The notes beneath the pieces are model-generated. The model saw only the letters and a program-made list of their open reading frames with translations. It ran no database searches and was not told where the DNA came from. The position numbers and the translations under genes were made by a program. A DNA stretch of 64,000 bases from Streptomyces sp. NBC_01439 (lineage in GTDB: Bacteria; Actinomycetota; Actinomycetes; Streptomycetales; Streptomycetaceae), in the NCBI RefSeq assembly GCF_036227605.1, contig NZ_CP109487.1, positions 3,484,001 through 3,548,000 on the forward strand. The letters are read 5' to 3'. Positions 32,913-57,154 of the stretch are shown one piece after another (position 1 is the first letter of the stretch; the number at the start of each line of letters is the position of its first letter).

Positions 32913-32917
32913 GCCCC

Positions 32918-37405: not shown

Positions 37406-37434
37406 GCTGAACGAGGTCTTCGAGGCGCAACCGC
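37406..37434 (+). repeat. 29-base direct repeat, copy 2
   Basis: A copy of the kgd 3' terminus (32884-32912) with a single change that turns the TAA stop into CAA. It sits in the 111-base gap between the secreted protein gene and the AbiEii-type gene and is not part of any visible reading frame of its own. Confidence 0.75.
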
Positions 37435-37453
37435 CTTCCGGCGTACCTAGATG

Positions 37454-39123: not shown

Positions 39124-39148
39124 GCCGACGAACACCCGGCCCGTTCCT

Positions 39149-39703: not shown

Positions 39704-39714
39704 GGGACGTCCTC

Positions 39715-40977: not shown

Positions 40978-41150
40978 GCGCTTCGCCCCTTCGGCCCCGG
41001 ACTCATGCCTTCACCGTAGTGACCTGGCTCCAGATACGGGCCGGAAAACGTCCGCCGAAACGTCCGGTGCCCGGCAGCCCGTGGCGCCCCCTCAGACGAT
41101 GCACTGGTGACATGCCGAATTCGCAACGCCCTTGAGCTGCAGGAGTACGT

Positions 41151-41411
41151 ATGTCCATGACCATTCGCGTGTATGACGTCAACACCCAGACGGGACGGAT
41201 CGTCCGCGAACGCGCCCATGTGGTCGTAGCCCCCACAGTGCGCGACAGCCCGCCCGTGCACCCCCTCGTATTCCCGAGTTGCGAGTGCGCCCTGTGCCCT
41301 GCCGGCCCGCGGCCGAGCCAGCGGCCCGGGCCCAGTCAGGAACTCCTCGACCGCGCTCGGGTCGGCTGGGAGCGTTTCGTCGCCTCCCTCCCGGAGCCGT
41401 CCGATGACTGA
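41151..41411 (+). CDS. Hypothetical protein, 86 residues, CECALC motif
   Basis: A small protein behind a good AGGAG site (five-base spacing). The N-terminal half is beta-like (MTIRVYDVNTQTGRIV), the middle holds CECALC, which could bind a metal, and the end is helical (LLDRARVGWERFVASLPE). The stop overlaps the next gene start by eight bases. The last 27 codons are duplicated at 38823-38906. It is divergent from the TTA-containing regulator, the arrangement seen for small regulatory partners of XRE proteins in Streptomyces; that link is inferred. Confidence 0.65.
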   Translation: MSMTIRVYDVNTQTGRIVRERAHVVVAPTVRDSPPVHPLVFPSCECALCPAGPRPSQRPGPSQELLDRARVGWERFVASLPEPSDD

Positions 41412-41628
41412 ACGGTACGAATACCTCCCCCACCACCTGCTGCGCCACCGCGTACGCGATGGCGCGTCCGGCACCGAAGGAGTACTGATGGCCGCGATCA
41501 ACGAGAACGTGTCGGACTCCGACCACCCGCACTGGACGGAACTCGCCTACATCCGAGCCGCCTCAGACCGCGAGTTCACCACCGAGGCCAGCAACGTCGA
41601 ACCAGCCGAATGACCACCCCCTCCGGAC
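41324..41628 (+). repeat. 305-base direct repeat, right copy
   Basis: Right-hand copy of the repeat at 38819-39123, 304 of 305 bases identical. Here the upstream gene is complete, so this is probably the parental copy. Confidence 0.95.
41404..41613 (+). CDS. Hypothetical 69-residue protein, right copy
   Basis: Same product as 38899-39108 with Val for Ile near the C-terminus. The ATG lies inside the end of the preceding gene, so the two are translationally coupled. Charged and aromatic N-terminus, acidic end; no family recognised. Confidence 0.65.
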   Translation: MTERYEYLPHHLLRHRVRDGASGTEGVLMAAINENVSDSDHPHWTELAYIRAASDREFTTEASNVEPAE

Positions 41629-42123
41629 ACCGTCAACGAGAAGCCCGCACAGATCTCGGGCGGCCCCTGCCCGGCCCGAGACGGGCGGGAGACGCCCATA
41701 GGTGAGGAGCGCGTAGCGATCTGAGGCGCTCCCGCGACACGGAAGGCCGGTCCTGTGGGCCCCGCCTCGGAAACGGGCGCCTACGCCCGACCGGGTCGGG
41801 CATCCCCGACCGGCCCGTCCTGGCCTCTCATCCCCCGGCCCGTTCCTTCGGGGGCTTCCCGGCAGTCTTCGACGTTCCGGGGCGGGACGGTCGGTCAAGG
41901 GTGGCCGGAGGCCATCGCGGAGCGACGCGAGGAACGAGCGCCCTTGAGGGACCGGCACGAACCGGAGAGACGATGAGACTGACGGGAAACCCCGTACGCA
42001 TCCCTGATGCCGATCAAGTGGCTCCCGCTCACCGAAGCCGGCCCTTCCAGTCGGCCCCGACTCTGGACATCCGCCACCGTCCGAGCCAGCCCGAGCCCGC
42101 CCGGCATGGCCCGCCCCCCGGCC
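41629..42123. other. 495-base intergenic region
   Basis: No convincing gene. An 8-base inverted repeat (41654-41661 and 41674-41681) and a GGTCGGG/CCCGACC hairpin near 41800 may terminate the plus-strand genes from the left and the fxsT operon from the right. No tRNA or other known RNA was seen. Confidence 0.45.
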
Positions 42124-45100
42124 CTACGGCTGTGGCTCGAAGTCCCAGTACGGCCTGGTCTGTTGTTTCGCCGAGATCGTGTGGACGTGTTGCGGGCCCA
42201 GGGTGCGGGTGAGGCCCTTGATGCCGGCGTCCTCGTATTTCGCCGCCTCCTCGTACTCCCGTACCGACCGGAGGTCCGCCGCCAGGGCGATCTGGGCGCT
42301 CAGCACCATCGGGTGGTCCGGGCCCAGGACCCGCTCGGCCGTGCGCAGCGTGTCGCGGCTCAGGTCCAGCGCGTCCTCCAGCCGCCCGGTGATGTTGCGG
42401 TGCCCGGTGGCGTTCAGGGCGCAGCCCAAGGTCCAGGGGTGCCGGTCGCCGAGGGCTCCCCGCATGCCCACCAGTGCCTGTTCGGCGAGGGAGAGGGCCG
42501 CCGTGCGTTCGCCCTGGGCCCGCAGGACGAGGCCGAGGTTGCCGACCGTGCCGATGCTGTACGGGTGGGCGAGGCCGAGCTGGGACTGGTAGCCGCGGAC
42601 CACGTCCTCGGAGATCCGGCGGGCCTCTCCGATGTCCCCGTACTCCCTGAGGTAGGTGGCGTAGTCGGAGGCGACCATCAGGGTCCACGGGTAGTCGACG
42701 CCGAAGACCCGGGTGGCCCGCTCCCACACGGTCCGCAGGCGCAGGCCCGCGCCGGGGATGTCCCCGGAGCGGCGCAGGCACATCCCGAGGTTGTGCTCGG
42801 CGCGCAGGGTCTGCGGGTGTTCCAGGCCCAGCACCTGGGTGTTGATCTTCACGCCCTGTTCCTGCCGGGTCTGTGCCTCGTGGTAGCGGCCCATCAGCCG
42901 CAGTCCCATGGCGCAGGCGATCCCGGAGGACAGGGTGGAGATGTGGTGGGTCCTCAGGACCCGTTCGCGGCGGCGCAGGGTGTCCAGGTCGAGGTCGTAG
43001 GCGTCCTGGTAGCGGCCGAGCAGGCGGTAGGTGGCGGCGAGGTTGTTCTGGGCGGCGAGGGTGGTGGAGTCGTCCTCGCCGAGCAGTTCGCGGTAGGTGG
43101 CCAGGCAGTGCTCGAAGATCTCCCGGGCCGGTTCGAAGCGGGCGATGCACAGCAGGACCCCGCCGTACGAGCTGGTGGCGCGCAGGGTTTCCAGGTCGCG
43201 GTCGCCACGTTCCTCGGTGAGTTGGGCGGCGCGGGCACGGGTGAGGGTCTCGGCGCGCCGGAACAGGCCGAGGTTGCGCAGCGCTCCGCCGTAGTGGTAG
43301 CTGAGTTCGCGGACCTTGGGGTGGTCCTCGCCGAGCAGGGCCCGCCAGATCAGGTCGGTCTCCTCGGAGAGCCGCAGGCACGTGCGGTACTCCCCGGCGA
43401 GGATCAGGTAGCGCAGGCAGTGCAGCAGGAAGTTCTGGATGCGCGGGTTGCTGCTGGTGAGCACGCCCGAGGTGGCCAGGTGCGGGATGAGTTCGGCGTA
43501 CCGGGGCCACAGGCGCGAGTCGGAGGGTCGGCCCGGGTCGGCCGCGGCGAGGACCTGACGGACGGCGCGGGCCAGGGGCTCGGCCTCCTCCTCGGAGAGG
43601 TCCTCGCGGACGATGCCGTGGACCATGCGGTGCAGTTGTACGGTCTCCAGCCCGCCGCCGCCCTCCTCCACGGCCAGGTCGGAGTACTCCAGCCGGACGA
43701 CGGAGAACTGGACGAGTTTGTTGAGGGCGGCGTTCCACCGGATCTGGTCGTTGATCAGCCCGGCCAGCTGTTCGGGCACGTCGTCGGCGGGGAATTCGCG
43801 CAGCAGGCGCAGCGGCACCGGGCCGGGGGCGAAGAAGACGAACAGCCGGAGCAGGGCGAGGGCGTCGGGGAAGTTCTCCCGGACGTTGTTGAGCAGTATG
43901 GCGAGGGCGGTCGGGAAGGGCAGGGGGTAGTCCTCGGAGACCGTGACGGCGTCGCGGGAGTCCATCCGGTGCTGGAGCAGGACGAGGTAGTCGCCGACCG
44001 GCAGCGGGGAGTCGGCGAGCCAGCCGGCGGTCTGATCGAGGGCGAGCGGGTAGTCCTCCAGGGCCTCGGCGAGCTGGTCGGCCTCGTCGGCGGTCAGGCG
44101 CAGGGCCCGGCGGCGGATGAAGGTGATCGACTCGGGGCGGGCGTAGAGGGGGACCTCGACCAGGCTGGTGTGCCGGGCGGCCCACTCGCGGTTGCGCGAG
44201 GTGATGATCACATCGCCCGCGCCGGAGGGCAGCAGGTCGATCAGGTCGTCGGGGTTGTCGCAGCCGTCGAAGACCATGAGCCAACGGCCGTACGGGTTCC
44301 CGCGCCGCAGCGCTTCGAGGACGGCCCGGATCTGCTCGCCGTAGCTGCCCGCGCCGCGCGGCAGCCCGAGCGCGGGAGCCAGGTCGGCCAGGCGTTCGCG
44401 CAGGGTGGGCCGGTCCTCGGCGGGGACCCACCACACCACGTCGTACTCGGAGGCGAAGCGGTAGGCGTACTCGGTGGCGACCTGGGTCTTGCCGACGCCC
44501 GAGAGCCCGAGGAGGGTGACGGTGGACGCTCCGGGCGGGGCTTCGGTCAGCGCCTCGCGCAAGGTGCCGATGACGTCGTTGCGGCCGGTGAAGCGCGGGT
44601 TGCGACGCGGGACGCGGCCCCAGATCTCCGGCGGGTCGTTGGGGAAGCGGGGGCCGCGGCGGCCGGTCTCGGTGCCGATCCGGTCGGTGGGCAGCTCCAG
44701 GCGGCGCAGCACGCGGTACTCGGCCTCGTACGCGTCCAGGCCCCACAGGTCGGTCTTCTCCAGTACGGCGACGGCGCTGGGCAGCGGCGCATCGGTGAGG
44801 CAGACCGCCGCGAACCGGTCGGGATGGCGGTCGGTGACGGCGCGCAGGGCGGTGTTCCACTGCTCGTCGGTGTGGGTGCCGGCGGAGAAGTAGCGCTCGC
44901 TGAGGACGAGGAGGACCCGGCTGCCGGAGCGGGCCAGGTCGTCGAGGGCCTGGTCGATGCCGGGGCTGCTCTGCGGGTCCCAGCGCTGGAGGGCGACGCG
45001 GTGGCCGTGCTCCTCCAGGCGGTGCGCGATCCACACCGCCCAGGGGCGGTTGAACCCCGCGAAGCTGATGACGAATCGCTGCGGTTGGGGCGGCTGGGGC

Positions 45101-45147
45101 GGCTGCTGCGCCGCCGGTTCACGGTCCTGGCGACTACCGGTGGTCAT
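42124..45147 (-). CDS. fxsT: FxsT: TIR-like/NB-ARC NTPase/TPR protein of the FxSxx system
   Basis: A 1,007-residue NLR-like protein. The N-terminus (about 20-150, RFVISFAGFNRPWAVWIAHRLEEHG) has a TIR-like fold. A STAND/NB-ARC NTPase follows, with Walker A LLGLSGVGKTQ (about 222-232) and Walker B-like WLMVFDGCDNPDD. The C-terminal half (about 520-980) is tetratricopeptide repeats with recurring LGxxHPxTL units. Proteins of this build (named FxsT) accompany FxSxx peptides. By analogy with other STAND proteins it would sense a ligand through the repeats and oligomerise. It is the last gene of the fxs operon, 63 bases after the HExxH gene. Confidence 0.9.
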   Translation of the reverse strand: MTTGSRQDREPAAQQPPQPPQPQRFVISFAGFNRPWAVWIAHRLEEHGHRVALQRWDPQSSPGIDQALDDLARSGSRVLLVLSERYFSAGTHTDEQWNTALRAVTDRHPDRFAAVCLTDAPLPSAVAVLEKTDLWGLDAYEAEYRVLRRLELPTDRIGTETGRRGPRFPNDPPEIWGRVPRRNPRFTGRNDVIGTLREALTEAPPGASTVTLLGLSGVGKTQVATEYAYRFASEYDVVWWVPAEDRPTLRERLADLAPALGLPRGAGSYGEQIRAVLEALRRGNPYGRWLMVFDGCDNPDDLIDLLPSGAGDVIITSRNREWAARHTSLVEVPLYARPESITFIRRRALRLTADEADQLAEALEDYPLALDQTAGWLADSPLPVGDYLVLLQHRMDSRDAVTVSEDYPLPFPTALAILLNNVRENFPDALALLRLFVFFAPGPVPLRLLREFPADDVPEQLAGLINDQIRWNAALNKLVQFSVVRLEYSDLAVEEGGGGLETVQLHRMVHGIVREDLSEEEAEPLARAVRQVLAAADPGRPSDSRLWPRYAELIPHLATSGVLTSSNPRIQNFLLHCLRYLILAGEYRTCLRLSEETDLIWRALLGEDHPKVRELSYHYGGALRNLGLFRRAETLTRARAAQLTEERGDRDLETLRATSSYGGVLLCIARFEPAREIFEHCLATYRELLGEDDSTTLAAQNNLAATYRLLGRYQDAYDLDLDTLRRRERVLRTHHISTLSSGIACAMGLRLMGRYHEAQTRQEQGVKINTQVLGLEHPQTLRAEHNLGMCLRRSGDIPGAGLRLRTVWERATRVFGVDYPWTLMVASDYATYLREYGDIGEARRISEDVVRGYQSQLGLAHPYSIGTVGNLGLVLRAQGERTAALSLAEQALVGMRGALGDRHPWTLGCALNATGHRNITGRLEDALDLSRDTLRTAERVLGPDHPMVLSAQIALAADLRSVREYEEAAKYEDAGIKGLTRTLGPQHVHTISAKQQTRPYWDFEPQP

Positions 45148-45210
45148 CGGGCCGTCTCCCTGGAATCCGGGCGGTGGACGGGCTTGAAAGGTACCGCAGC
45201 GGACGGTCCG

Positions 45211-46467
45211 TCAGCCGTCTGCGAACGGCGCGAGTTCGGGGTGCGCCTCGCACCAGGCGCGGCGTTCGCGGTCGACGGCCCGGCGGGCCGCGGTGTGCTG
45301 GTCGCCGGGCGGCGGCAGGTCGTCCATGGCGCGTTCGGCGACCCCCATCGCATCGGTGAACTCCCGTCCCGCGGTGGTCAGTCGCTCGTGCGCCCGCAGG
45401 GCCGGCAGAACGGCGGCCACCTGCGCGCGGATCCGGGCGTGCTGGGCCCAGGCGCCGCGGGCCCCGTAGAGGGCGGCGCGCTGCCAGTACCCGGCGAGGG
45501 CAAGGTGGGCGTAGGCGCCGTGCAGCAGGCCCTCCAGGGGGCGGGGGTCGCTGCGCCAGGGGGCCCAGTGGCGGGGCGTGTGGTCGGCGGTGTGCAGGAT
45601 CAGGACGTCGGTGAGGGCGGTCAGTTTGCCGTGCTGGACCTCGTGGACGAGGGTCGCGGCGAGCGCGGGCGGGGCCTGGGCGCGGGCGAGTACGGAGCCG
45701 GCGGCCGCGGGGAGGGTGGCACCGCTGGAGCGGGAGCCGCCGGCCAGCGGTACGACGGAGCGCAGCAGTTGGACGGTTTCCTCGGCGCGGATCGTGTCGT
45801 AGCGCTGGAGCAGCGCGAGCGCGCCGGACCACTGGGTGTCCCACCGCTTGTGGCCCTTGGGGGTGAGCCGGCGGGCGGGGCGGACCGGGGCCGGCTGCGC
45901 GGGGCCGGGCGCCCGGTAGGGGTCGAGGTCGTCGAGGGCGGTCCGGCCGCCGGGCAGGGCGTGCAGGGGCACGGTGGCCGGATCGTCGGGGTCCCAGGAG
46001 CGTTCGGTGAGGGCGAGCGGGCCGGGGCGGTCCGGGCGCAGCAGCCCGAGGGTGGGCAGCACGAGCCGGCCGTGCAGGGGCCGCAGGGTGTGGCTGAAGG
46101 GGATCCCGGCGCGCAGGGCGGCGGCGACGGCGAGGGCCCCGAGGTGTCCGAGGTCGGGCGGCGGGCCGCACGGGGCGTGCAGCCGGCGCAGGGTCTCCTC
46201 GGCCCACACCCCGGTGGCCGGGTAGTGCAGTACGTCGCGCACGGCGCCCGCGTCACGGCGCTCGGCCTCTTCCAGGAGGGCCCAGTGGTCGGCGGTCTCC
46301 CCGGACCGGCCGCCGGGGGCGGCGTCGAGGACCGCCCGCAGCAGGAGCAGGCGTTTGGAGCGGCGTACGTCGCGGACCAGGCGGGTGCCCTCCATGGAGG
46401 GTTCGGTGGAGGCGAGGGCGCGCAGGGTGGGCGAGGAGACGGTGAAGGCGGTGAGGGCGTCGGTCAT
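45211..46467 (-). CDS. HExxH-motif peptide modification protein
   Basis: A 418-residue enzyme of the FxSxx-associated HExxH family. The metal motif HEVQH (about residue 270) sits in LVHEVQHGKLTALTDV. Members of this family have been described as iron/2-oxoglutarate-dependent peptide beta-hydroxylases, despite the protease-like motif; here that activity is inferred. The ATG overlaps the fxsB stop by four bases (ATGA), so the two modifying enzymes are made together. The likely substrate is the precursor peptide encoded at 48203-48397. Confidence 0.9.
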   Translation of the reverse strand: MTDALTAFTVSSPTLRALASTEPSMEGTRLVRDVRRSKRLLLLRAVLDAAPGGRSGETADHWALLEEAERRDAGAVRDVLHYPATGVWAEETLRRLHAPCGPPPDLGHLGALAVAAALRAGIPFSHTLRPLHGRLVLPTLGLLRPDRPGPLALTERSWDPDDPATVPLHALPGGRTALDDLDPYRAPGPAQPAPVRPARRLTPKGHKRWDTQWSGALALLQRYDTIRAEETVQLLRSVVPLAGGSRSSGATLPAAAGSVLARAQAPPALAATLVHEVQHGKLTALTDVLILHTADHTPRHWAPWRSDPRPLEGLLHGAYAHLALAGYWQRAALYGARGAWAQHARIRAQVAAVLPALRAHERLTTAGREFTDAMGVAERAMDDLPPPGDQHTAARRAVDRERRAWCEAHPELAPFADG

Positions 46468-48062
46468 GGGGCGACCGCCGGGGGATGGACGGCGGGGGAT
46501 GGGGTCGCGGGGGGATCGGCGGCGGTCCGGGCGCTCTGCGGGGCCCGGACGGCCTGCGGGGCCCCGGCGCTCTGCGCGGCACGGGCGTTCTGCGCGGCCC
46601 GTTGGACGGCGGCGGCGATGTGCCGGATCAGCGGCTGGAGGTCGGTGCAGTACACGGACGGCTGGCGGAAGCCCTCGCCGGCACGGTAACGGTGCGGGTA
46701 GTGCCCTCCGCCGCACACGTCGACCAGCTCGCAGGCGCGGCACCGGGCGGCCAGCGCGTCCAGGCCGAGCTGGCGGGCGGCGAGTCCGGGGTGGTCGAGG
46801 AGCTGGTCGAAGCTGTGGGTGTCGAGGGTCATCCCGGTCGCGGCGGCCCCCTCGTACGCGGATTTCAGTGAGTCGGCCTGTTCGATGGAGCCGTCGGTCT
46901 CGATCACGGCGGTGGCGGCGGGCGTGAGCCCGAGGGTCTCGGTGGTGGTGGGCAGGCCGAGCAACAGGGCGATGATCTCCTCGAAGAGCCGGATCCGGGT
47001 GCGCCGTACGCCGTCGTGCCACCAGCGCTCGAAGACGGCGAGGAGCCAGTCCGCGTACGGGGTCCGGTCCGGGTGGTGGCCGGGCGGCGGGGCGCTCCAG
47101 TTCGCGAGCGGCAGGAGCAGCCCGATGCTGGGCGGGGCGAAGGCGAGCAAGGACTCGTAGGTCTCCACCGGGTCGTGGTCGAGATCGACGACGCAGAGCA
47201 CCCCGGCGTAGCTCTGCGGATGGCGGGCCAGCAGCCGCAGGCCGCGGGCGGCGGACGCGAAGCCGGGCCGTCCTGCGCGGTCCACCCGGCGGGTGTTGTG
47301 CACGGGCAGGCCGCCGTCGAGGCTGACGCCGACGCGGATCCCGGCGGCGGCCAGGGCGGCGAGGCGGCCGCGGGTGAGCAGGGTGCCGTTGGTCTGGACG
47401 GTGGCGGTGACCCGGGTGCGCGGGGCGGCCCCGGCCACGGCGGCCCGGACGGCGTCGACGGGCTCGGCCAGCCGGGCGGGGGTGGTGAGCAGCGGTTCGC
47501 CGCCGTGCAGGACGAGGTCGATCCGGGGCAGGTCGTGGGCGGCGGCGTGCTCGGCGATCCGCTGTGCGGCGCGGGCGGTGGTGGCGGGGGTCATGGCGGA
47601 CGGCTGGTCGCGCCAGCCCTGGTCGGCCATCTCGTAGACGTAGCAGTAGGTGCAGGCGAGGTTGCAGCGGCTGCGGGTCTTGAGGACGAACTGGCGTATC
47701 GGGTGGGGCCGGTGGCCGGCGGCCCGCGCGGCGGCCACGTCGAGCCGGGTGTAGGGCCAGGGCGCGTACCGGGCGTGCCGCAGCCACTGGGCGACCACCG
47801 CGGCGTCGCCGTGCGCGGCGGGCACCGCGTCGCCGCGCGGGGCGGGAGGCGCGTCGGCGTGCACAGCAGGCCGCGCTTCGATGCGCGGAGCGGAACACGC
47901 TTCTGCGTACGGGGTGGGAGGCGCGTCGGCGTGCGGGGCGGGAGGCGGAGCCTGGTCAGGGAGCACGGTGAGGTCGGTGTGCGGTGCTGGGGCAGAAGAC
48001 ACCGTCGGGTCGGGGGCGCCGGGTGGGGGCAGCGGGGTTCCGCTCGTGACCGCTCGCCGCAT
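46464..48062 (-). CDS. fxsB: Radical SAM/SPASM peptide cyclophane synthase FxsB
   Basis: A 532-residue radical SAM enzyme. A disordered, His/Pro/Ala-rich N-terminus (about 1-110) precedes the core with the cluster motif CNLACTYCYVYE (about 137-148), HGGEPLL and the SPASM-type cysteines in CRACELVDVCGGG (about 445-457) for auxiliary clusters. FxsB-type enzymes form a three-residue cyclophane between Phe and Ser in the F-x-S motif of the precursor. The start at 48062 is chosen for the GGAGG eight bases upstream. The C-terminal 40 residues are Ala/Pro-rich low complexity. It lies directly downstream of the precursor peptide gene. Confidence 0.93.
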   Translation of the reverse strand: MRRAVTSGTPLPPPGAPDPTVSSAPAPHTDLTVLPDQAPPPAPHADAPPTPYAEACSAPRIEARPAVHADAPPAPRGDAVPAAHGDAAVVAQWLRHARYAPWPYTRLDVAAARAAGHRPHPIRQFVLKTRSRCNLACTYCYVYEMADQGWRDQPSAMTPATTARAAQRIAEHAAAHDLPRIDLVLHGGEPLLTTPARLAEPVDAVRAAVAGAAPRTRVTATVQTNGTLLTRGRLAALAAAGIRVGVSLDGGLPVHNTRRVDRAGRPGFASAARGLRLLARHPQSYAGVLCVVDLDHDPVETYESLLAFAPPSIGLLLPLANWSAPPPGHHPDRTPYADWLLAVFERWWHDGVRRTRIRLFEEIIALLLGLPTTTETLGLTPAATAVIETDGSIEQADSLKSAYEGAAATGMTLDTHSFDQLLDHPGLAARQLGLDALAARCRACELVDVCGGGHYPHRYRAGEGFRQPSVYCTDLQPLIRHIAAAVQRAAQNARAAQSAGAPQAVRAPQSARTAADPPATPSPAVHPPAVAP

Positions 48063-48202
48063 CGCCGCACCTCCCTCCCCCGACAAAGAACCGCCCGGGG
48101 ACACCCCGGCGGACGGTCCATCCCTGCCCTGGGGACGGTCCCGGCTAACGGCGGAAAGTGGTCAACTCGGTTTCAAGGTAGGACGGATCAGGCATGGTGC
48201 GT

Positions 48203-48397
48203 TCAGGCCACGCTGGAGTCGAAGGCGTTGAGGATCTCCGCGGGATGGGTCACCCGCTCGACCATGCCCTCGATCACCCCGGCCAGCACGGGATGGTCGA
48301 TCCCGCGCAGCGCCGCCAGATCCAGCCCGGAGAGATCCGGCAGCCGCCCCGGGCATTCCGGGGTCGCCGCCGCCACTTCCTGCTGCTTCGTCACCAT
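48203..48397 (-). CDS. fxsA: FxSxx-type RiPP precursor peptide FxsA
   Basis: A 64-residue peptide. The leader is amphipathic (LPDLSGLDLAALRGIDHPVL is the family-like core region, about residues 19-38), and the C-terminus is NAFDSSVA. The F-D-S triplet is the expected cyclophane site for FxsB. The usual family ending is F-x-S plus two residues; here three residues (SVA) follow the serine. The ATG at 48397 has only a weak G-rich ribosome site 12 bases upstream. It lies immediately before fxsB, on the same strand, after a 128-base gap from the vWA/TPR gene. Confidence 0.85.
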   Translation of the reverse strand: MVTKQQEVAAATPECPGRLPDLSGLDLAALRGIDHPVLAGVIEGMVERVTHPAEILNAFDSSVA

Positions 48398-48525
48398 GTG
48401 CCGCCGGGCCCCCTGTCGCGTCGCACACCGGATGGTCCACTTCCTTTTCCCATCGGCTTCCTTTTCCCGTCGGCCGGGCCGTGGAAACAGCGGCCCTGGT
48501 CCGGACCGCGCCCCCGGTGCGGGCG

Positions 48526-51500
48526 TCAGAACCCGGCCTCCAGGGCCAGGATCCGCACGCGGACCGCCTCCGAGCGCCCCGCGGCACCCTCGCGGGTCCG
48601 CGTCCAGAGCTCCAGTGCCGAGCGGTACGCGTCCAGGGCCGCGCGGGGCCGGGCCATGCGTTCCAGCACGTCCCCGCGCAACTGCTGTACGCGGGCGGCC
48701 AGCTGGACGGCGGTGTCCGCGCGGTCCTCCACGTCGGCCTCGAGGGCGGCCCGCCAGGCCCGCCGGTAGGAGTCCGCCGCCCGGTCGAGGCGCTCCAGCG
48801 CCCGGGTGTGGCCGTGGATCTCCTGCTGGACGTCGCCGTGGTCCCGCCAGATACGGGCCTGTTCCAGCGGGTTGCGGCTGTGCCGGACGGCCAGCTCCAG
48901 TAGGTACTCGGCCTCCCGCAGGTCCACCGGGTCGCCCTCGTACGTGTGCCGCAGCCGGAGCCCGGTGGCCAGCCGCAGCAGCCGGTGGGCCGCGCCGGGG
49001 TCGGACTGCGGGACCGCGGACCGGCTCTCGCGCAGGACGCGTACGGCGGCCCCGGTGAACCGCCGCCCGTCGGTGGCCCGGGCCCGGTCCAGGAGTACGT
49101 CGCCCCATTCGGGCAGCAGTTCCCCGAAGGCCTCCGCGTCGCGGGGGATCAGCCGCCGGGCCCGGCCGTACGCTTCGGCCGCGTCCTCCAGCGCCGTCGG
49201 GTCGGCGTCCCGCGCGTACCGCTCCCGGTGCACGCGCGCCAGGCAGACCAGGGCGGCCACCCGCAGTTCCGGGTCCCCGCCGGACTCCGCCAGGGCTGCG
49301 TCCAGCTGCCCCGCGGCTTCCTCCAGCCGGCCGGGGAGGTGGCGCAGCGCCTCGGCGAGCTCCACCCGTACCTGTGCGGTGCCCGGGCCGGTGCGGCCGA
49401 TGTGGCCCGTGTGACCCGTGCGGCCGGTGTGACCAGTGCGGCCGGGGGCGGCGGCGGGCAGGGCGGGCAGGGCCGTGGCCAGGCGGGCGGCGGCCTGTTC
49501 GGCCAGGGCCGTGCGCTCGGCCGGGTCCGGGGTGCGGGGCAGCAGGGCCAGCAGGACGCGGCCCAGGGCCAGGTGCAGCTCGGGGTACGGGGCCGGGCCG
49601 CCCTCCCGCCCGCCGCCGCCCTCCCCGCCGCCGCCCTCCGCGCCGGTGCCCTCCCCGCCGCCGTCCGTACCGGCGGCCGGGTCCGCGCCCGGCGCCCGGC
49701 CCGCCAGGGGTTCGAGGGACGCCCGGGCCTCGCGGAGCGCGCCCGCCTCGTCCCGCAGCCCGCTCAGCCGGATCAGGGTCTCCGCCCGCCGCACCGCGCA
49801 GTCCCGCTGTAGTTCCGGGTCGGCCGCGGCGCCGGCCGCCGCGAATTCCATGTCCGCCGCCGCCAGCAGCTCCGCGTCCGGTCCGGCGGCCAGCGCCCGC
49901 TCGTACAGCACCCGACCGAGCACCGCCCCCGCCCGCGCCGTGCGCAGCCCGGTCACGGCCCGTTCCGCCTCGGCCAGCAGCTCCGGGTCCCGCTGGGCCG
50001 CCCACAGCCGCAGCAGCGCCCCCGCCAGCTCGGTCTCCGCCTCCTCCGGCGGATCGCCGGGCCCCGGCGGGGCCGTCACCGCCCGCCGGAGCACCGCCAC
50101 GGCCTCGTACAGCGCCCGCGCGCCGCCCTCCGCATCGGCGTCGGCGTCCGCGAGCCGGTCCCGGGCGGCGCGCACCGCCCCGGCCCGGGTGGGTACCGGG
50201 GCCGCGGGGGGCCGGCGTACCGGGGGGCCCTCCTGCGGCATCCCGGGCAGGTAGCGCCGTACGACTTTGGCCGAAACCTGCGCGAAGGCCTGCGGGAGCC
50301 GCCCTTCCGGCGCCCGCTCGTCCTCCTCGGGTCCGGGGTCGGCGACCGCCGGCGGGGTCCCGGTCAGCTGGGAGACCGCGAGCGCGGGAAAGTTCCGTAC
50401 GCCCCGGCCGAAGTGCGCCAGCACGTACTCCGAGCAGTGCTTGAGCACCAGCGCGGCTTCGTCCCGCCCCAGCGGCCCCAGCAGTACGTCCTGCACCCCG
50501 GGGACGAACTCGTACCAGTGCCCCGGCCCCGGACCGCTGCGCCGCAGCAACCCGCTCAGCAGCACCTCCGCCAGGTCGGACGGCTCGGAGTCCGGCAGCA
50601 TCGTGCGTTGCACCAGCCGCATCACGGGCAGCGTCAGCGGCGCCGCCGACAGGTACACCGCGAGTTGTACGGCCTGGGGTGCGGCCGAGGACCGGAACCG
50701 TGCCACGAGCTCGCGCGGCGGGCGCACCGCGCGGGGCGGCGGCAGCGGCGCGGCCGGGTGGTCGGCCAGTACCCGGCCCACCTCGGCCGGTACGGGCCCG
50801 GCCGTGAGCCCGGCCAGCAGCCGGGCCCACGCACCGAGGGCGGTCGCGCTCGGCGGCAGCACGGGCACCGTCAGCCCGCCCGTGGGCCGCCCGGGCAGCG
50901 GCGGTCGGTCGGGCCGGAAGGCGAGCTGCTGCCCGCCGCCCTCCGGCCGGGTGAGCGTGCCCCGCTCCGTGGGCAGCCAACTGCGCCCCCACAACCGCTG
51001 CGGCAGCGGCTGGACGACCATGCACGGGGTGCACTCGGCCCACCGGTGCAGCAGCCGCTGCGCGGTGCCCTCGCGCCACAGCCGCCCGGCGCAGTCGGAG
51101 ACCAGCATGGTCAGGGCCCGGCCGGTCGGGTCCCGCAACTGGTCGCCGGAGCGCAGGCCGGAGGCGCGTACGCAGCCGGGTGCGGGGCTGCGGCCGAGCG
51201 CGGCCGTGCCGTCGGCCAGGCGGTGCAGGTAGTGCACCTGAACGTCCCGGAAGGCACCCAGCCGCTCGCACACGGAGCGCAGTTCCTCGAACATGTCCTG
51301 CCAGACGGCCATCGACGGGGACGCGTCCATCACCAGCCGTACGGTCGCCTCGCGCCGGCTCTCCGGCCGGAGCACCGGGATGACCAGTCCGAGGGCGCGG
51401 GCGCTGGCCTCGGCAGTGGCCGCCTCGTCGATCACCAGCCGGGTGGGCGGGCCGGGCGGGCGGTGTCGCTGGAGGGCCCGCAGGGCCCGCTGGACGTCCA

Positions 51501-51867
51501 GGATGCGGGGCAGCGCGGCGGCTCCGGGCACCCGTACGGGCACTCCGTACTCTTCGGGCGACTCCTCCGGCCGTTGCCCGTCGGCGCCGTCGGCCCGGGC
51601 CGCCCCGGGCGCGTAGAGCCCGACCGGAGCATCAACCTCCACTTCTGTGCGTACGGGTCCGGCGGGCTCCCCGCCCGGATCCTCGGGCGCGGTCTCCGGG
51701 GCGCCCGGCCCCGGACCGCCCGGGGCGGACCGCCCGGGCCCGCCGATGTGCCCGGCCAGCCACAGGGCGTCGGCGAGTTCCCCGGCGGACGGGTCGAGCC
51801 CGGCCGCGAGCAACAGCGCGGCCAGTTCCCGGACGCCGGGTGCGCCGGCGGATGCCACGGCCCTCAC
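48526..51867 (-). CDS. SAV_2336-family vWA-like/TPR protein
   Basis: A 1,113-residue protein. After an N-terminal region seen in SAV_2336-related proteins (about 1-160) comes a von Willebrand A-like domain with the metal site VMDASPSM (about 178-185, D-x-S-x-S). A helical region follows, then a long TPR-like C-terminal half (about 560-1100) broken by Gly/Glu-rich and GRTGHT-type low-complexity inserts. With the MoxR ATPase immediately upstream (GTGA overlap) and the trypsin-VMAP-like protein before that, it is the vWA component of a MoxR-vWA-VMAP ternary system. No signal peptide; cytoplasmic. Confidence 0.85.
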   Translation of the reverse strand: MRAVASAGAPGVRELAALLLAAGLDPSAGELADALWLAGHIGGPGRSAPGGPGPGAPETAPEDPGGEPAGPVRTEVEVDAPVGLYAPGAARADGADGQRPEESPEEYGVPVRVPGAAALPRILDVQRALRALQRHRPPGPPTRLVIDEAATAEASARALGLVIPVLRPESRREATVRLVMDASPSMAVWQDMFEELRSVCERLGAFRDVQVHYLHRLADGTAALGRSPAPGCVRASGLRSGDQLRDPTGRALTMLVSDCAGRLWREGTAQRLLHRWAECTPCMVVQPLPQRLWGRSWLPTERGTLTRPEGGGQQLAFRPDRPPLPGRPTGGLTVPVLPPSATALGAWARLLAGLTAGPVPAEVGRVLADHPAAPLPPPRAVRPPRELVARFRSSAAPQAVQLAVYLSAAPLTLPVMRLVQRTMLPDSEPSDLAEVLLSGLLRRSGPGPGHWYEFVPGVQDVLLGPLGRDEAALVLKHCSEYVLAHFGRGVRNFPALAVSQLTGTPPAVADPGPEEDERAPEGRLPQAFAQVSAKVVRRYLPGMPQEGPPVRRPPAAPVPTRAGAVRAARDRLADADADAEGGARALYEAVAVLRRAVTAPPGPGDPPEEAETELAGALLRLWAAQRDPELLAEAERAVTGLRTARAGAVLGRVLYERALAAGPDAELLAAADMEFAAAGAAADPELQRDCAVRRAETLIRLSGLRDEAGALREARASLEPLAGRAPGADPAAGTDGGGEGTGAEGGGGEGGGGREGGPAPYPELHLALGRVLLALLPRTPDPAERTALAEQAAARLATALPALPAAAPGRTGHTGRTGHTGHIGRTGPGTAQVRVELAEALRHLPGRLEEAAGQLDAALAESGGDPELRVAALVCLARVHRERYARDADPTALEDAAEAYGRARRLIPRDAEAFGELLPEWGDVLLDRARATDGRRFTGAAVRVLRESRSAVPQSDPGAAHRLLRLATGLRLRHTYEGDPVDLREAEYLLELAVRHSRNPLEQARIWRDHGDVQQEIHGHTRALERLDRAADSYRRAWRAALEADVEDRADTAVQLAARVQQLRGDVLERMARPRAALDAYRSALELWTRTREGAAGRSEAVRVRILALEAGF

Positions 51868-52913
51868 CTCGGGCGGTCGAGGCGCTGGATGAGCAGGTCC
51901 GCGAGGTCCTCCCGGGTGGGCGGGGCGGCGTAGTGGGTCAGGTACAAGGCGTTGAGCAGCTGGTCAGCGGCGACCAGCTCGGTCTGGGAGCGGCTGAGGA
52001 ACTCCCTGATCAGGTCGGCTCCGAGGCGGGCCGCCTCGTCGCCGAGGTGGGCGCGGACCATGGTGGCGAGCCGTTTCTCGCCGGGCTGACCGAGCTTCAG
52101 CTGGATGCAGCGGCGCAACAGGGCGGCCGGGAAGTCCCGTTCCCCGTTGCTGGTCAGGATGATGAACGGGAAGGCCCGGCAGCGGACGCGGCCGCCGCGG
52201 ACGGTGACCTTGGTCCCGTCGTCGGTGAGCACCTGGACCTCGGGCTCGCTGTCGGCGACCCGTTCCAGCTCGGGGAGGGCGAACTCCCCTTCCTCCAGCA
52301 CGTTCAGCAGGTCGTTGGGGAGGTCTATGTCGCTCTTGTCGAGCTCGTCGATGAGCAGGACGCGGGGCCGGGCCGTCGGCAGCAGGGCGGTGCCGAGCGG
52401 CCCGAGCCGGATGTACTTCCCGATGCCGGGCACCCCGGAAGCCGCGGCGGCGGGGACTGAGGCCGCGGCGTCGGCGGGGGAGCCCCCGCCGCTCGCGGCG
52501 ATCTGGACGTCCTGCAGCCGGGCCAGGGCGTCGTACCGGTAGAGGCCGTCCTGGAGCACGGTCCGGGACACCACCGGCCACCGGAGCACCCGCCCCAGCT
52601 TCAGCTCGTGGGCGACGGCGTGCGCGAGGGTGGACTTCCCGGTGCCGGGGAAGCCGGTCACGAGCAGCGGCCGCCGTAAGTAGAGGGCCGCGTTGATGGC
52701 CTCCAGTTCCTCCGGTTCCGGCCGGTGCAGTTCGGCGACCTGCCGGTGCGCCCCGAGCCGCCGGGCCACGTTGCCGTCGGCGACCTGGGCCGGACCGCCC
52801 GGTTCCGCCACGGGGCCGCCGTCGAAGTCCCGCCAGGGCGGCGGGTCGGGCAGTGCGTCGATCCCGTCGTGGGGCTCGCCCACCCCGCGGTAAATGAGCC
52901 ACTCGTCGTTCAT
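51864..52913 (-). CDS. MoxR family AAA+ ATPase (TTA codon)
   Basis: A 349-residue ATPase. Walker A is GFPGTGKST (about 86-94) and Walker B VLLIDELDKSDIDLPND (about 185-201); sensor 1 lies in ILTSNGERDFP and the arginine finger region in LLRRC. An insert after about residue 130 is Ala/Gly-rich. MoxR proteins remodel partner complexes through vWA adaptors, and the next gene encodes such an adaptor with overlapping start. Codon 79 is TTA (52677-52679), so translation probably requires the bldA tRNA, tying the operon to development or late growth. Confidence 0.92.
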   Translation of the reverse strand: MNDEWLIYRGVGEPHDGIDALPDPPPWRDFDGGPVAEPGGPAQVADGNVARRLGAHRQVAELHRPEPEELEAINAALYLRRPLLVTGFPGTGKSTLAHAVAHELKLGRVLRWPVVSRTVLQDGLYRYDALARLQDVQIAASGGGSPADAAASVPAAAASGVPGIGKYIRLGPLGTALLPTARPRVLLIDELDKSDIDLPNDLLNVLEEGEFALPELERVADSEPEVQVLTDDGTKVTVRGGRVRCRAFPFIILTSNGERDFPAALLRRCIQLKLGQPGEKRLATMVRAHLGDEAARLGADLIREFLSRSQTELVAADQLLNALYLTHYAAPPTREDLADLLIQRLDRPR

Positions 52914-52949
52914 GGTGCTCCTGCTCCCTCCCTCGCGTCGTCCGCGGCG

Positions 52950-52988
52950 CCCCCGTCACAGGCCCCCGTCACAGGCCCCCGTCACAGG
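52950..52988. repeat. Three perfect 13-base tandem repeats at a gene end
   Basis: Units CCCCCGTCACAGG at 52950-52962, 52963-52975 and 52976-52988. The third covers the stop codon of the protease gene (TCA at 52982-52984 on the plus strand); the others fill the short gap to moxR. Loss or gain of a unit would change spacing between the two genes. Confidence 0.9.
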
Positions 52989-55141
52989 TCGCCCTGGAGC
53001 GGCTCCTCGTCCGGCAGCGGCCGCGCCGGGTCCTCCCACACCAGCCCCGTCCCGGTCGCCCAGTAGGCGTCGGGATCCGCCCCGTACGCCCGCCCCCGCA
53101 GGTTCTGCAGGCGTACCGGGAGCGCCTCCGCCCGCCCGGCGTCGGCCAGCTCCTCCCGCAGCCCGCGGTGGAAGGGCGCGCAGGAGGCTCCCGGGTCCGG
53201 CGGCGGCCGCCGGGTCACCACCACCCCGTACCCGGCGTCGCGTACCGCGTGCAGCGAGCCGAGGGTGGGCTCCTGGTCGGCCGCGCGGCAGTGCACCGGC
53301 ACGGTGTTGTCGGGGAGTCCCGTCAGCCACTCGGTGGCGGGGCTGCGCGGGCGTCCCCGTATGCAGTCGGCGCGTTCGTCCTGCAGGGGTCCCGCCTGGA
53401 CCCGCGCCCAGCGGGCGGACGCGTCGGTCCCCTCGCGGTCGGCGGGGTGCTCCCTGGCCCCGCCCGGGGGCACACCGCCCGGGTGCGGACCTGTGGGGTG
53501 CGCACCGCCCGGGTGCGCACCGCCCGGGTGCGCACCGGCGGGGTGGCGCAGGACCACCGGCCGCTGCACGCCGAGCGGTACGCCGCCCACCACCACCCAT
53601 TCGTCCACCGCGAGCCCGAACAGCTCGGGTGCCACGGCCACTTCGAGCAGGGCCGCGGCCTCGTGGGTGTCGCAGCGCCGGAAGCCCTCGGCGAGCGGGG
53701 CCCGCAGGGCCTCCGGCAGGCCCGCCAGGGTGGCCCGTACGCCCGAGTCCACGGGCGTCACCCGCCCGGCGTGTGCGGGACCGGCCAGCACGGAGACCCG
53801 CCAGTCGTAGAGGTCCTCCCAGCCGTGCGCCCACACCTCCAGCAGCACCGAGGCACCGGGCGGCAGCCCGCCGGACCGCCGCGCCGGACCGAGCGCCGCC
53901 CGCCCGGCCGAAGCGCGGCGACGCCGCTCGCGCTCGGCGAGGCCCCGCTCGTGGCGCTCGCCGAGCTCGCGCCGCAGCGGCCGCCACAGCCGCTCGGCCG
54001 TGGCCCGTACCCAGTCCCACAGTTCCTCGTCCGCGCCCGGCGTGACCGGCTCCCGGTACTCGGCCACGCTCACGTCGGTCGCGTACCGGAGCATCGCCGC
54101 GGCCTCCCCGGTCCCGCCCGGCGGGTCGTGCAGCAGCCCCAGCCCGTCGCGCCAGCTCAGCGGGGCAGGCGGCAGCGGGTCCGGCTCCTCGCCGCGCGCC
54201 GCCTCGACCAGGGCGCGTACGACCTCGGAGGAGCCCGGCGGGGGCAGCCCGGCCAGCAGCCCGAACAGGGTGGTGCGCTCGCCGGGGGTGAGCCGGCCCC
54301 GGCCGGCGTACGGGTCGCCCGCCTCCGGCGGGAGCTCGCCGTGCACGTCCGTCCAGGTCCGCCGGTTGTCGAGATCGCTGAGGTGCTGGTCGTAGTGGTA
54401 CAGGTCGTGGGCCTGCATGATCCGGCGGTAGAGCCCGACCTGGCCCCGCGCGGCCATCGGCAGGGTGCGCAGCTGCACGACGGAGACGGCGAGCCCGCCG
54501 CCCCCCGCCTGCCGCCGGGCCTTGAGCACGCCGACGACCTCACCGCGGACGAGGTCCACCACGGGCCCGCCGGACATGCCGGGCTCGATCTCGTCGTCGT
54601 CGCCGAGCCGGATGGCCGCGCCGTTCCCGGCGGTTCCGCGCAGCCGGGTGGTGCGGCCGGTGATCTCGGGGGTGCCGAGGTCCTCGGTGCAGCCGAAGTA
54701 GGCGACCTCGTCGAAGCGCGGTCTGGAGCGGTCGGTCAGCCATGCGCAGGCGTGCGAGACGGGAGCCAGCACTCTGACCAGCGCCAGGTCGGGCAGGTCC
54801 CACAGCGCGTGCCGGCCGGGCCGCCGTTCCTCCAGCCGCTCGGGCAGTACGCACTCCACGCGCCCGGTGACCGTGCCGGTGATGGTGCCGGCGGAAAAGG
54901 TGATGCCGACCTCGCGTCCCGTCAGACGCACCGCAGCACCCCCTTCGCCGACCACGTGCGCGCACGTCAGGACCCATCCGGGGGCGATGAAGAAGCCGCT
55001 CCCCCACGTGGGACCGGTCCGATGGCTGCGAGGGTTGTCATACCCGCCCGGCGGGGCGTGAACGCGTACGGTCGCCGCCTGGACGAGGGGCTCCAGAAGC
55101 TCGAAGGCGCGCGCGGACCCTGTCGTGCGCCCGTCCGTCAT
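52982..55141 (-). CDS. Trypsin-like serine protease with VMAP-like C-terminal domain
   Basis: A 719-residue cytoplasmic protein. The N-terminal domain (about 15-215) is a chymotrypsin-fold protease with the triad in LTCAHVV (His), DLPDLALVRV (Asp) and EPGMSGGPVVD (Ser). There is no signal peptide. A helical middle follows, then a C-terminal VMAP-C-like region (about 455-719) with ELFGLAVDEWVVVGGVPLG and a final LVWEDPARPLPDEEPL. A Gly/His/Pro repeat encoded by 15-base units lies at about residues 535-560. In MoxR-vWA-VMAP systems such proteases are the effectors, held inactive until triggered. The ATG at 55141 is preferred to one at 55165. Confidence 0.85.
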   Translation of the reverse strand: MTDGRTTGSARAFELLEPLVQAATVRVHAPPGGYDNPRSHRTGPTWGSGFFIAPGWVLTCAHVVGEGGAAVRLTGREVGITFSAGTITGTVTGRVECVLPERLEERRPGRHALWDLPDLALVRVLAPVSHACAWLTDRSRPRFDEVAYFGCTEDLGTPEITGRTTRLRGTAGNGAAIRLGDDDEIEPGMSGGPVVDLVRGEVVGVLKARRQAGGGGLAVSVVQLRTLPMAARGQVGLYRRIMQAHDLYHYDQHLSDLDNRRTWTDVHGELPPEAGDPYAGRGRLTPGERTTLFGLLAGLPPPGSSEVVRALVEAARGEEPDPLPPAPLSWRDGLGLLHDPPGGTGEAAAMLRYATDVSVAEYREPVTPGADEELWDWVRATAERLWRPLRRELGERHERGLAERERRRRASAGRAALGPARRSGGLPPGASVLLEVWAHGWEDLYDWRVSVLAGPAHAGRVTPVDSGVRATLAGLPEALRAPLAEGFRRCDTHEAAALLEVAVAPELFGLAVDEWVVVGGVPLGVQRPVVLRHPAGAHPGGAHPGGAHPTGPHPGGVPPGGAREHPADREGTDASARWARVQAGPLQDERADCIRGRPRSPATEWLTGLPDNTVPVHCRAADQEPTLGSLHAVRDAGYGVVVTRRPPPDPGASCAPFHRGLREELADAGRAEALPVRLQNLRGRAYGADPDAYWATGTGLVWEDPARPLPDEEPLQGDL

Positions 55142-55270
55142 CCGCACCCCCCGCTCGTTGGGCATCCAGGCTAGACCCGGGGACGACGCGTGCGGGAGGT
55201 GTCGCCGATAGGCGGATTATCCTGGCGGGAAACACCCCCTGCACACCCCCATCACGGCACGGAGCCCGAC

Positions 55271-55456
55271 TTGTACTTCACCGATCGCGGCATCGAGGAG
55301 CTGGAGAAGCGGCGCGGCGAGGAGGAGGTCACCTTCGAGTGGCTCGCCGAGCAGCTGCGCACCTTCGTCGACCTGAACCCGGACTTCGAGGTCCCGGTGG
55401 AACGCCTGGCCACCTGGCTGGCCCGGCTGGACGACGAGGACGAGGACGAGGAGTGA
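55271..55456 (+). CDS. DUF6104-like small acidic protein, TTG start
   Basis: A 61-residue protein, YFTDRGIEELEKRRGEEE after the initiator, with a very acidic end (DDEDEDEE). It matches the small conserved Streptomyces DUF6104 family, whose members begin at this point. The start must be TTG at 55271, with GGAG 8-11 bases upstream; there is no ATG or GTG at the family start. An upstream extension in frame is not protein-like. Divergent from the protease gene. Function unknown. Confidence 0.8.
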   Translation: MYFTDRGIEELEKRRGEEEVTFEWLAEQLRTFVDLNPDFEVPVERLATWLARLDDEDEDEE

Positions 55457-55642: not shown

Positions 55643-56284
55643 ATGGCACAGCCGCCGATGGCGGGATCCGTTGGGATACCTGCGCGTGCGCTCCTTGGCG
55701 AACCCCCACTGGTCCGGGACGTGCCGTGGCTGATCGCACGGTTGCGACGCGAGCGCTCGGCCACCCTCCCCGCGGATCGCGACCTCTACGACGAAGCGAT
55801 CGCCGCGGCGCAGGGCTACGCGCGCACGCGCCGGCAGACGCCGGAGGCCGAACGCGCATGGGACCAGCTCCCCAGCGCACAAAAGGAGCCGCCCACCTAC
55901 CGGAGGTACTCGGCGGGCGGGCGGCCGTTCAAGGTGCGCTCGGCGCAGGCGGCGCCAGGGCCGCCGAGACAGGATCAGACCGGGTGCCCCGGCCGGGACG
56001 GGCCCGACCGGAGCTACTGCTCAGGAGCCGACGAGCTGTCGGGGGTCGTCCAGCCATGCGTACTGGCCGGACCCGTCGACCGTGACGCCGAAGCGGGTGA
56101 TGTGCGGCCGTCCTCGCACCTCGTACCACGTGTACGCCGCAGTCACCTCCGCCCAGAGATCGCGCGGTCCCCACGAGCGGACGGCGTCCTCCTCCCACCA
56201 GTCGCCGTAGCGGACGATCGTTGCCGAGGTGCCAGCCTCGTCCACGAACTGGACCTGCCGGTCGTCGCCCTCCCCGCGGTGTGA
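55643..56284 (+). CDS. Doubtful reading frame; only the first ~100 codons look coding
   Basis: The first part (EPPLVRDVPWLIARLRRE, DLYDEAIAAAQGYARTRR, QKEPPTYRRY) reads like a real helical protein with high third-position GC. After about 55930 the frame becomes Arg/Pro-rich and runs 264 bases antisense into the methyltransferase gene, which is the better gene there. It is probably a fragment whose stop was lost, or a chance frame. No family recognised. Nothing else was found between 55457 and 55642. Confidence 0.25.
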   Translation: MAQPPMAGSVGIPARALLGEPPLVRDVPWLIARLRRERSATLPADRDLYDEAIAAAQGYARTRRQTPEAERAWDQLPSAQKEPPTYRRYSAGGRPFKVRSAQAAPGPPRQDQTGCPGRDGPDRSYCSGADELSGVVQPCVLAGPVDRDAEAGDVRPSSHLVPRVRRSHLRPEIARSPRADGVLLPPVAVADDRCRGASLVHELDLPVVALPAV

Positions 56285-57154
56285 GTAGGAGACGTCCGGG
56301 ACCTGGAGGCCGATGGCGAAATCCTGGAGGTAGCCGGCCCCCAGAACCTGAGCGGGATCGATCGGCGACTTCCGGCTGGTCGAATCGTCCGGAACCTGGA
56401 GGTCGACAGTCGGCCGCTCGGAGCGGATCCACATGTACGAGGACTCGCCGATGAAGGCTCCCTGCGCCTTCGTTCCCAAGGTGTCGACGCGGAGCCGCAG
56501 GAGCCCCGAGTTGCTGTAGGCCGTCCCGAACGGGGTGAGGATCACCCCGCTCCGCCTGGACTGCTCGATCCAGGCGTACGGAACGCGCCGCAGGGACGCC
56601 GTGTTGATGATCCGGCTGAACGGCTCCCCGCCGGGGACGCCTTCGAGCCCGTCCCCGACGATGAGCTCCGGGTCGTAGCCGGCCGCCTTGAGGTTCGCGG
56701 CGCCCGCACGTGCAAGCTCGTCATCCACCTCGATGGCGACCACCCGATCCGAGCCGACGCGCTCACACAGCAGGGCCGTGTGGTAGCCGGATGCGTAGCC
56801 GATCTCCAGGACGCGGGACCGTGGTGTGAGGTCCAAGTGCTGGAGCTTCCGCATGACGATGTCCAGGGCTGACACGGAGGACGTGAAGTCACCCGCGCTG
56901 GGGCCGGGTGTCACGTCGCCGTCGTCTAGCTGGGTGACGACCGACTGGTGAGGGTTCCAGACGGCGTGGCGCCAGACGTCCGGCTCCTCGTCGCGGTCCA
57001 CGAAGGTCCAGAGGCCTTCGGCGTCCCGGACCGGGAGCCAGACGGCTCCCGGGACGAACGCTTCGCGGTCGACCTTGTCGAAGGCCTCGGCCAGCCATGG
57101 CTCGCGCAGTAACCCTGCTGTCACCAGGGCCTCGCGGCAGATGTCCCGGTTCAC
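56021..57154 (-). CDS. Protein-L-isoaspartate-type methyltransferase (TTA codon)
   Basis: A 377-residue SAM-dependent methyltransferase of the PCMT type. The N-terminal segment has VDREAFVPGAVWL and a TSSVSALDIVM region, the SAM site is VLEIGYASGYHTALL (about residues 116-130), followed by VVAIEVDDELA. The C-terminal 150 residues are an extension not found in housekeeping PCMT, as in the methyltransferases that accompany ATP-grasp peptide maturases; no ATP-grasp gene is nearby. The GTG start overlaps the stop of a 42-codon Pro-rich peptide gene (GTGA). Codon 15 is TTA (57110-57112), implying bldA dependence. Confidence 0.88.
   Translation of the reverse strand: MNRDICREALVTAGLLREPWLAEAFDKVDREAFVPGAVWLPVRDAEGLWTFVDRDEEPDVWRHAVWNPHQSVVTQLDDGDVTPGPSAGDFTSSVSALDIVMRKLQHLDLTPRSRVLEIGYASGYHTALLCERVGSDRVVAIEVDDELARAGAANLKAAGYDPELIVGDGLEGVPGGEPFSRIINTASLRRVPYAWIEQSRRSGVILTPFGTAYSNSGLLRLRVDTLGTKAQGAFIGESSYMWIRSERPTVDLQVPDDSTSRKSPIDPAQVLGAGYLQDFAIGLQVPDVSYSHRGEGDDRQVQFVDEAGTSATIVRYGDWWEEDAVRSWGPRDLWAEVTAAYTWYEVRGRPHITRFGVTVDGSGQYAWLDDPRQLVGS

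Follow-up and report, generated by a model that had tools for sequence, protein, structure and literature searches.

Organization of the locus

The 64,000-nucleotide (nt) stretch of the Streptomyces sp. NBC_01439 chromosome considered here (contig NZ_CP109487.1, positions 3,484,001–3,548,000; hereafter the window, to which all coordinates refer) contains seven minus-strand genes in an unbroken run at 42124–55165, in which a MoxR–vWA–VMAP protease system is joined to an FxSxx peptide pathway. The run begins with a trypsin-VMAP protein of 727 residues (52982–55165; 719 residues with the ATG start at 55141), followed by a MoxR-type AAA+ ATPase (51864–52913; 349 residues) and a SAV_2336-type vWA co-chaperone with a TPR-like C-terminal region (48526–51867; 1113 residues). 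The second half comprises the FxsA precursor peptide (48203–48397; 64 residues), the radical SAM/SPASM cyclophane maturase FxsB (46464–48062; 532 residues, with an alternative GTG start at 48104), FxsH, a homologue of the α-ketoglutarate (aKG)-HExxH-type peptide β-hydroxylases (45211–46467; 418 residues), and FxsT (42124–45147; 1007 residues), which combines a TIR domain (approximately residues 22–153), an AP-ATPase/NB-ARC-like NTPase and TPRs. Domain and profile searches agree with the original prediction on the seven consecutive genes and their identities, and the moxR/vWA and fxsB/fxsH overlaps that it described are both 4 nt long.

This locus belongs to the FxSxx type of VMAP-ternary conflict system predicted by Kaur, Burroughs, Iyer and Aravind in 2020 (PMC7159879). 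In the available portion of that paper, a peptide-processing system is assigned to ∼20% of actinobacterial VMAP-ternary systems, and the FxSxx type is described as having an additional radical SAM/SPASM gene, a vWA protein with TPRs only and a downstream TIR-AP-ATPase gene. The window has this kind of arrangement: a VMAP-C protein with an N-terminal peptidase adjoins the genes for MoxR and the putative vWA protein with its TPR-like C-terminal region, the FxSxx peptide is accompanied by both a radical SAM/SPASM gene and an HExxH gene, and the TIR-AP-ATPase-TPR protein is encoded by a separate downstream gene. The same portion views the peptide as a likely toxin or signal that amplifies the core system and proposes that the HExxH protein is a protease freeing the C-terminal peptide of the precursor. 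The arrangement in the window, and most of the interpretation that the original prediction gave it, is already found there; what is new here is an account of genomic placement, inheritance and probable enzymology. Relative to the published description as available, the HExxH protein is here read as a hydroxylase, the module has a fixed site between kgd and a DUF6104 gene, and the window allele has the Trp-less tail NAFDSSVA and a Gln at TIR position 96.

The window proteins appear intact at most of the residues that we checked. Conservation was assessed in alignments of 43 loci selected for holding all parts, FxsH included. The H/D/S trypsin triad is present in the window and conserved in 41 of these loci, the other two having an alignment gap. 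The key Walker A and B residues of MoxR and the P-loop of FxsT are intact in 43/43, as are the CxxxCxxC motif and three checked C-terminal Cys residues of FxsB and, in this set chosen for FxsH presence, the HExxH motif. The vWA protein carries a MIDAS-like DxSxS motif whose first Asp is retained in 41 loci and replaced by Glu in two. Its residues 171–354 resemble vWA domains in fold, with middling Z scores, and we assign a putative vWA domain in the window from this fold comparison only; a 500-residue piece gave no Foldseek match below 0.001. At the C-terminus, a TPR-S match scores 20.7 bits, below its threshold of 27.6, and no further C-terminal domain was detected.

A promoter scan of the 42–55 kb run with the sigma-70 consensus only found no promoter. 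Since fxsA is flanked by intergenic gaps of 128 and 140 nt, two transcripts are possible. A terminator-like hairpin at 48109–48095 raised the idea that an attenuator separates fxsA from fxsB in the window. We rejected this reading: under a stricter rule a hairpin follows fxsA in 0/23 window-clade loci and 1/55 others (0.3 and 1.2 in shuffled sequences), the window itself standing outside this count.

Conservation and linkage of the two halves

Used as a query against GTDB species genomes, the window FxsB gave 301 pattern matches, 269 of which encode relatives; the best 80 of the 269 were kept (loci L001–L080), so that this set is biased to close relatives. Of the 80 fetched loci, 62 showed the complete set of six large genes. 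The original prediction had proposed comparing gene order around fxsB homologues, and the order and strand of the window recur in 61 of the 62, the exception being L072.

A less biased sample consists of 121 Streptomycetaceae genomes, the window's own included. FxsB occurs in 101 of them (144 loci) and VMAP-C in 86 (127 loci, from 130 rows after three split matches were merged). The FxsB–VMAP distance is at most 20 kb at 44 FxsB loci; three were excluded, with VMAP 14.8–17.4 kb away on the downstream side, which leaves 41 linked cases. Hence 41 of the 127 VMAP loci in this family are linked to FxsB, far from the rare co-occurrence that, according to the original prediction, would have spoken against a joint system. 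VMAP lies upstream on the same strand in 40 of the 41; the remaining one is inverted (L125, genome G118), and its VMAP was detected by the family-wide VMAP scan, the window VMAP having given no match there as a query.

Other FxsB loci show no such linkage. In the 121 genomes, the FxsB loci that score at least 500 bits number 65, and VMAP is absent within 20 kb of every one; judged from open-frame length, these FxsB proteins are mostly fused to a hydroxylase-like extension. At the same threshold, FxsB is present in 25 of 148 genomes of the class. Of these 25, 17 are from outside Streptomycetaceae, and their 22 FxsB loci are all without VMAP nearby, although contig ends could conceal links. The stand-alone FxsA–FxsBH–FxsC–FxsT system (TIGR04268, TIGR04269, NF040587, NF040588 and NF040586) has the FxsA and FxsB families and an AP-ATPase-TPR FxsT in common with the window locus; it differs in the fusion of FxsB to the hydroxylase-like extension, a separate TIR-like FxsC and the lack of VMAP nearby. 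One such system lies in the same genome (L085), with FxsA, a fused FxsBH, a TIR-like FxsC and a MinD-type FxsT whose N-terminal KGGVGR/MinD-like domain sets it apart from the window FxsT. This genome also has a second VMAP-C locus (L086), away from both FxsB loci, with a weak N-terminal match of 36 bits to the caspase-like family NF047832 (cut-off 140).

A single chromosomal site

The FxsB-linked module almost always occupies one site, bordered in the window by a single-copy DUF6104 gene (55190–55456, plus strand) and by kgd/sucA, which encodes the multifunctional 2-oxoglutarate dehydrogenase (28922–32908, plus strand). DUF6104, for which no mention was found in the literature searched, is matched once in 120 of the 121 genomes. 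VMAP lies within 6 kb of it at 39 of the 41 linked loci, compared with 3 of the 86 other VMAP loci (Fisher p = 1e-26, relatedness ignored). The three are in G075, where match listings indicate that the module is apparently divided by a contig end, G092 (L127, which lacks FxsB) and G017 (L123, a VMAP half). The two linked loci off the site are L125 and L126. Nearly all linked cases are therefore one orthologous locus rather than many independent unions.

We also chose 20 sites for having no FxsB-linked VMAP. In 19 of them kgd stands beside DUF6104, with a gap of at most 583 bp in 15 and of 0.9–5.7 kb in four; the 20th (L100, G044) is occupied by an FxsB-less module (L128). A mobile island was rejected as the main account, given that 39/41 linked loci share one site and that kgd adjoins DUF6104 at 19/20 of these module-less picks. 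At filled sites the module fits closely: the end of fxsT lies within 313 bp of kgd in 42 of 51 loci that span the whole site, 37 of the 51 are tight on both sides from DUF6104 to kgd, and in 34 of 49 the module matches leave nothing longer than 1.1 kb uncovered between the two borders. Larger fxsT–kgd gaps (>0.4 kb) occur only in window-clade loci (9/51). The window itself has a gap of 9.2 kb (32909–42123), and this ∼9 kb insert holds genes for an ABC transporter ATPase (33096–33827), a GNAT protein (39149–39745) and an NsdA-family regulator (39715–40977).

In 10 of 10 filled genomes whose contig makes up at least 95% of the assembly, G118 included, the site lies at 0.28–0.41 from a contig end; in G115, where the contig is 93% of the assembly, it lies at 0.22. 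Among 15 genomes picked as empty, three have the site at 0.12–0.18. The available portion of PMC7159879 reports a preference of VMAP systems for a position near 33% of the chromosome and ties it to recombination; our analysis suggests that one inherited locus may be a simpler partial account.

Co-inheritance of the halves

Trees and distances were computed for the 43 loci in which kgd and every module part are present. Between the six module proteins, pairwise distances show correlations of 0.84–0.97; with kgd the values are 0.60–0.79. Within the 28 loci of the non-window lineage, partial correlations given kgd are 0.26–0.69 for five of the nine pairs that cross the halves (Mantel p ≤ 0.002). 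Trees built from the concatenated proteins of each half have 25 splits in common among 32 and 34 supported ones, compared with 11 or 12 supported splits common to each half and kgd, a disagreement that is inflated by the less informative kgd tree (22 supported splits). The original prediction of two known systems in one run therefore holds as regards their forming one unit, by gene order, shared site and tree agreement; the union itself is not new, being described in the available text of PMC7159879.

All three trees fully support the split that sets the window lineage apart. The branch at this split measures 0.80 and 0.68 in the two halves (8.6% and 9.9% of tree length) versus 0.04 in kgd (3.2%). 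A long branch in both halves is expected either from replacement of the module in one piece by a divergent one or from joint fast evolution.

The precursor peptide and its enzymes

The window FxsA scores 43.6 bits against TIGR04268 (cut-off 28), and its FDSSVA tail is one residue longer than FxSxx. With the window counted, an FxsA match occurs at 80 of 81 loci and is weak at two of them (L052 and L076); the remaining locus, L007, is cut by its contig. Two core types can be distinguished. An NAFDSxxx ending occurs in 24 of 25 window-type loci (window counted; one is contig-cut), and a Trp-containing core, mostly LWGF-like, can be read from the listed sequences of 54 of the 56 non-window loci. 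With one aromatic tail residue in the window type and two or more elsewhere, a single cyclophane is expected for the former. The L052 and L076 precursors end in YYEDSP and HYEDAP, like the YxD-tail type (family name NF041709), and L127 encodes an FxsA-like precursor without an FxS tail (7390–7593 of that locus) in a module with FxsH and FxsT but no FxsB.

FxsB aligns in sequence with the triceptide maturase ChlB (9gm3) at 258 bits, and FxsH gives sequence matches to ChlH (8s5f) and 22nu that cover a PWRxDxRP stretch, whose W, R, D, R and second P do not vary across the 43 aligned loci. FxsH also scores 137 bits against the aKG-HExxH family TIGR04267, above the cut-off, and has the HExxH motif. 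By homology to this radical SAM/SPASM enzyme and aKG-HExxH hydroxylase, FxsB and FxsH would carry out cyclophane formation and hydroxylation, respectively. The available portion of PMC12636437 describes ChlB and ChlH as fused domains of one protein; FxsB and FxsH, in contrast, are encoded by two genes and accompany an FxsA-type precursor and a conflict module. A gene at 56021–57154 (minus strand), beyond the DUF6104 border, encodes a methyltransferase similar to those that accompany ATP-grasp peptide maturases (266 bits to TIGR04188, cut-off 380) and is perhaps a second gene near the module of the type that serves ribosomally synthesized and post-translationally modified peptides (RiPPs).

These matches make FxsH more likely a hydroxylase than a peptide-releasing protease. 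That FxsH is instead a zincin protease that cuts FxsA and releases the C-terminal peptide would agree with its HExxH motif and with the proposal in the available text of PMC7159879, and a related HEXXH enzyme, PflC, is reportedly proteolytic without a leader peptide (PMC12636437, available portion). The family assignment of FxsH and the invariant residues of its ChlH/22nu match point elsewhere, as does its absence from some otherwise complete modules: 11 of the 41 linked loci have no HExxH match within 6 kb, among the matches listed, and in ten of these (L126 included) fxsT directly follows fxsB, leaving no room for fxsH. FxsH is an optional part of the module, and we regard a role as releasing protease as quite improbable.

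FxsT and natural variants

The N-terminal part of the window FxsT has a TIR fold; a sequence search of the PDB with this piece gave no useful match. The catalytic Glu of TIR NADases stands at the start of helix αC. The column of residue 96 (44860–44862, minus strand), which lies in a helix spanning residues 94–107, is possibly that of the catalytic Glu, judging from this location rather than from a residue-level superposition.

FxsT lies within 20 kb of FxsB at no fewer than 38 of the 41 VMAP-linked loci, at least 62 of the 65 high-scoring (mostly fused) loci and at least 21 of 38 other loci. As the commonest companion of FxsA and FxsB, with or without VMAP, it is the most likely target of the modified peptide. 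Eight natural variants of the site can be compared. In L040, L027 and L046 (the latter two judged by the right-flank genes directly before fxsA) the order A–B–H–T is kept and VMAP, MoxR and vWA are absent; L051 keeps vWA and lacks VMAP and MoxR; L127 and L128 lack FxsB; L076 lacks FxsH; and in L072 the FxsA–B–H genes are inverted inside the site. FxsT is retained in all eight. The original prediction suggested that the modified peptide is a signal, guard or effector ligand for the protease and NLR-like arms; binding to either arm is conjectural, and the variants would point more to FxsT than to the protease.

Proposed mechanism and alternative explanations

We tentatively favour a reading in which the state of FxsT, within this FxSxx-type VMAP-ternary system, is set by a modified peptide that stays inside the cell. 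FxsA would be made and retained in the cytoplasm, FxsB would join the Phe side chain of the tail F-D-S into a three-residue cyclophane, and FxsH would then β-hydroxylate the cyclophane-containing FxsA. The modified peptide would be read by the TIR-STAND-TPR protein FxsT and decide whether FxsT fires. The trypsin-VMAP/MoxR/vWA complex would serve as a sensing and threshold arm on the same switch, with VMAP control exerted perhaps through cleavage of FxsA or FxsT, and the output would be cell death or defence.

Several observations weigh against this proposal. Residue 96 of FxsT is Gln in the window and in L001, whereas 44 of the 48 TIR domains aligned have Glu; if this residue is catalytic, the window may encode an FxsT that is silent or serves only as a scaffold. 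Among the matches listed, FxsT is missing within 20 kb of FxsB at 17 of the 38 loci that are unlinked and score lower. At L052 and L024 the sequence extends at least 3.5 kb downstream of fxsB, and FxsT has no match there. FxsH is missing from part of the loci, and the protease arm from L040, L027 and L046. Six supported splits conflict between the halves, and the contrast with kgd is softened by the poorer resolution of its tree. In 15 of 49 loci the site has larger uncovered stretches, either inserts or parts of diverged genes, whose contents were not inspected singly. A defence function is likewise conjectural: PADLOC gave only weak generic domain matches for the locus, and in the mostly non-subscription literature we found no experimental study of any VMAP–Fxs locus.

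The two halves might instead be independent systems parked at a permissive site next to kgd, their linkage arising from site, descent or regulation with no joint mechanism, an explanation that we consider credible but unlikely. It would account for 39 of 41 linked cases lying at one orthologous site, for the Fxs half standing alone in L040, L027 and L046, for stand-alone Fxs systems elsewhere, as in L085 of the same genome, and for the absence of linkage at the 22 FxsB loci outside the family. It gains further from the non-window lineage (28 loci), where module proteins correlate with kgd at 0.84–0.89, so that descent there is mostly vertical; together with the FxsT-less L052 and L024, this correlation weakens the peptide–FxsT proposal and strengthens parking. 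Yet the tree of either half is closer to that of the other half than to the kgd tree, and two further unions stand at other places (L125 and L126). A permissive site also fits poorly with the 20 sites chosen as module-less: kgd stands beside DUF6104 at 19 (no more than 583 bp away at 15 of these), and the one remaining site holds an FxsB-less module, so other large systems do not gather there in this sample. FxsA could also be an exported RiPP, either a bacteriocin or a signal, with FxsT and VMAP as its immunity or sensing parts. FxsB and FxsH do come from RiPP tailoring families, the available text of PMC7159879 allows a peptide toxin or signal, and the window has an ABC transporter ATPase gene. 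That gene, however, sits between fxsT and kgd, an interval longer than 0.4 kb in window-clade loci alone, and an exporter does not fit into the 34 of 49 loci without a module-free stretch above 1.1 kb or into the 37 of 51 that are tight from DUF6104 to kgd. An exporter could be encoded elsewhere in the genome; we nevertheless hold export to be improbable.

These results change how the family of loci can be approached. The HExxH gene, previously proposed to encode a protease that releases the peptide, is recast as probably encoding a hydroxylase that modifies it, and the modification of the small peptide is readable by mass spectrometry. A published prediction becomes a tractable single-locus question, with full, partial and empty natural alleles at one site in one family. 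At its most speculative, and with very little confidence on our part, the module would be an ancestral checkpoint for cell death in Streptomycetaceae, fixed at its site next to the 2-oxoglutarate dehydrogenase gene. The TIR-STAND protein would be licensed or restrained by the oxidation state that a hydroxylase dependent on α-ketoglutarate and oxygen gives to one cyclophane peptide inside the cell. If this were true, hyphae would link their tricarboxylic acid cycle or oxygen state to an immune-like switch.
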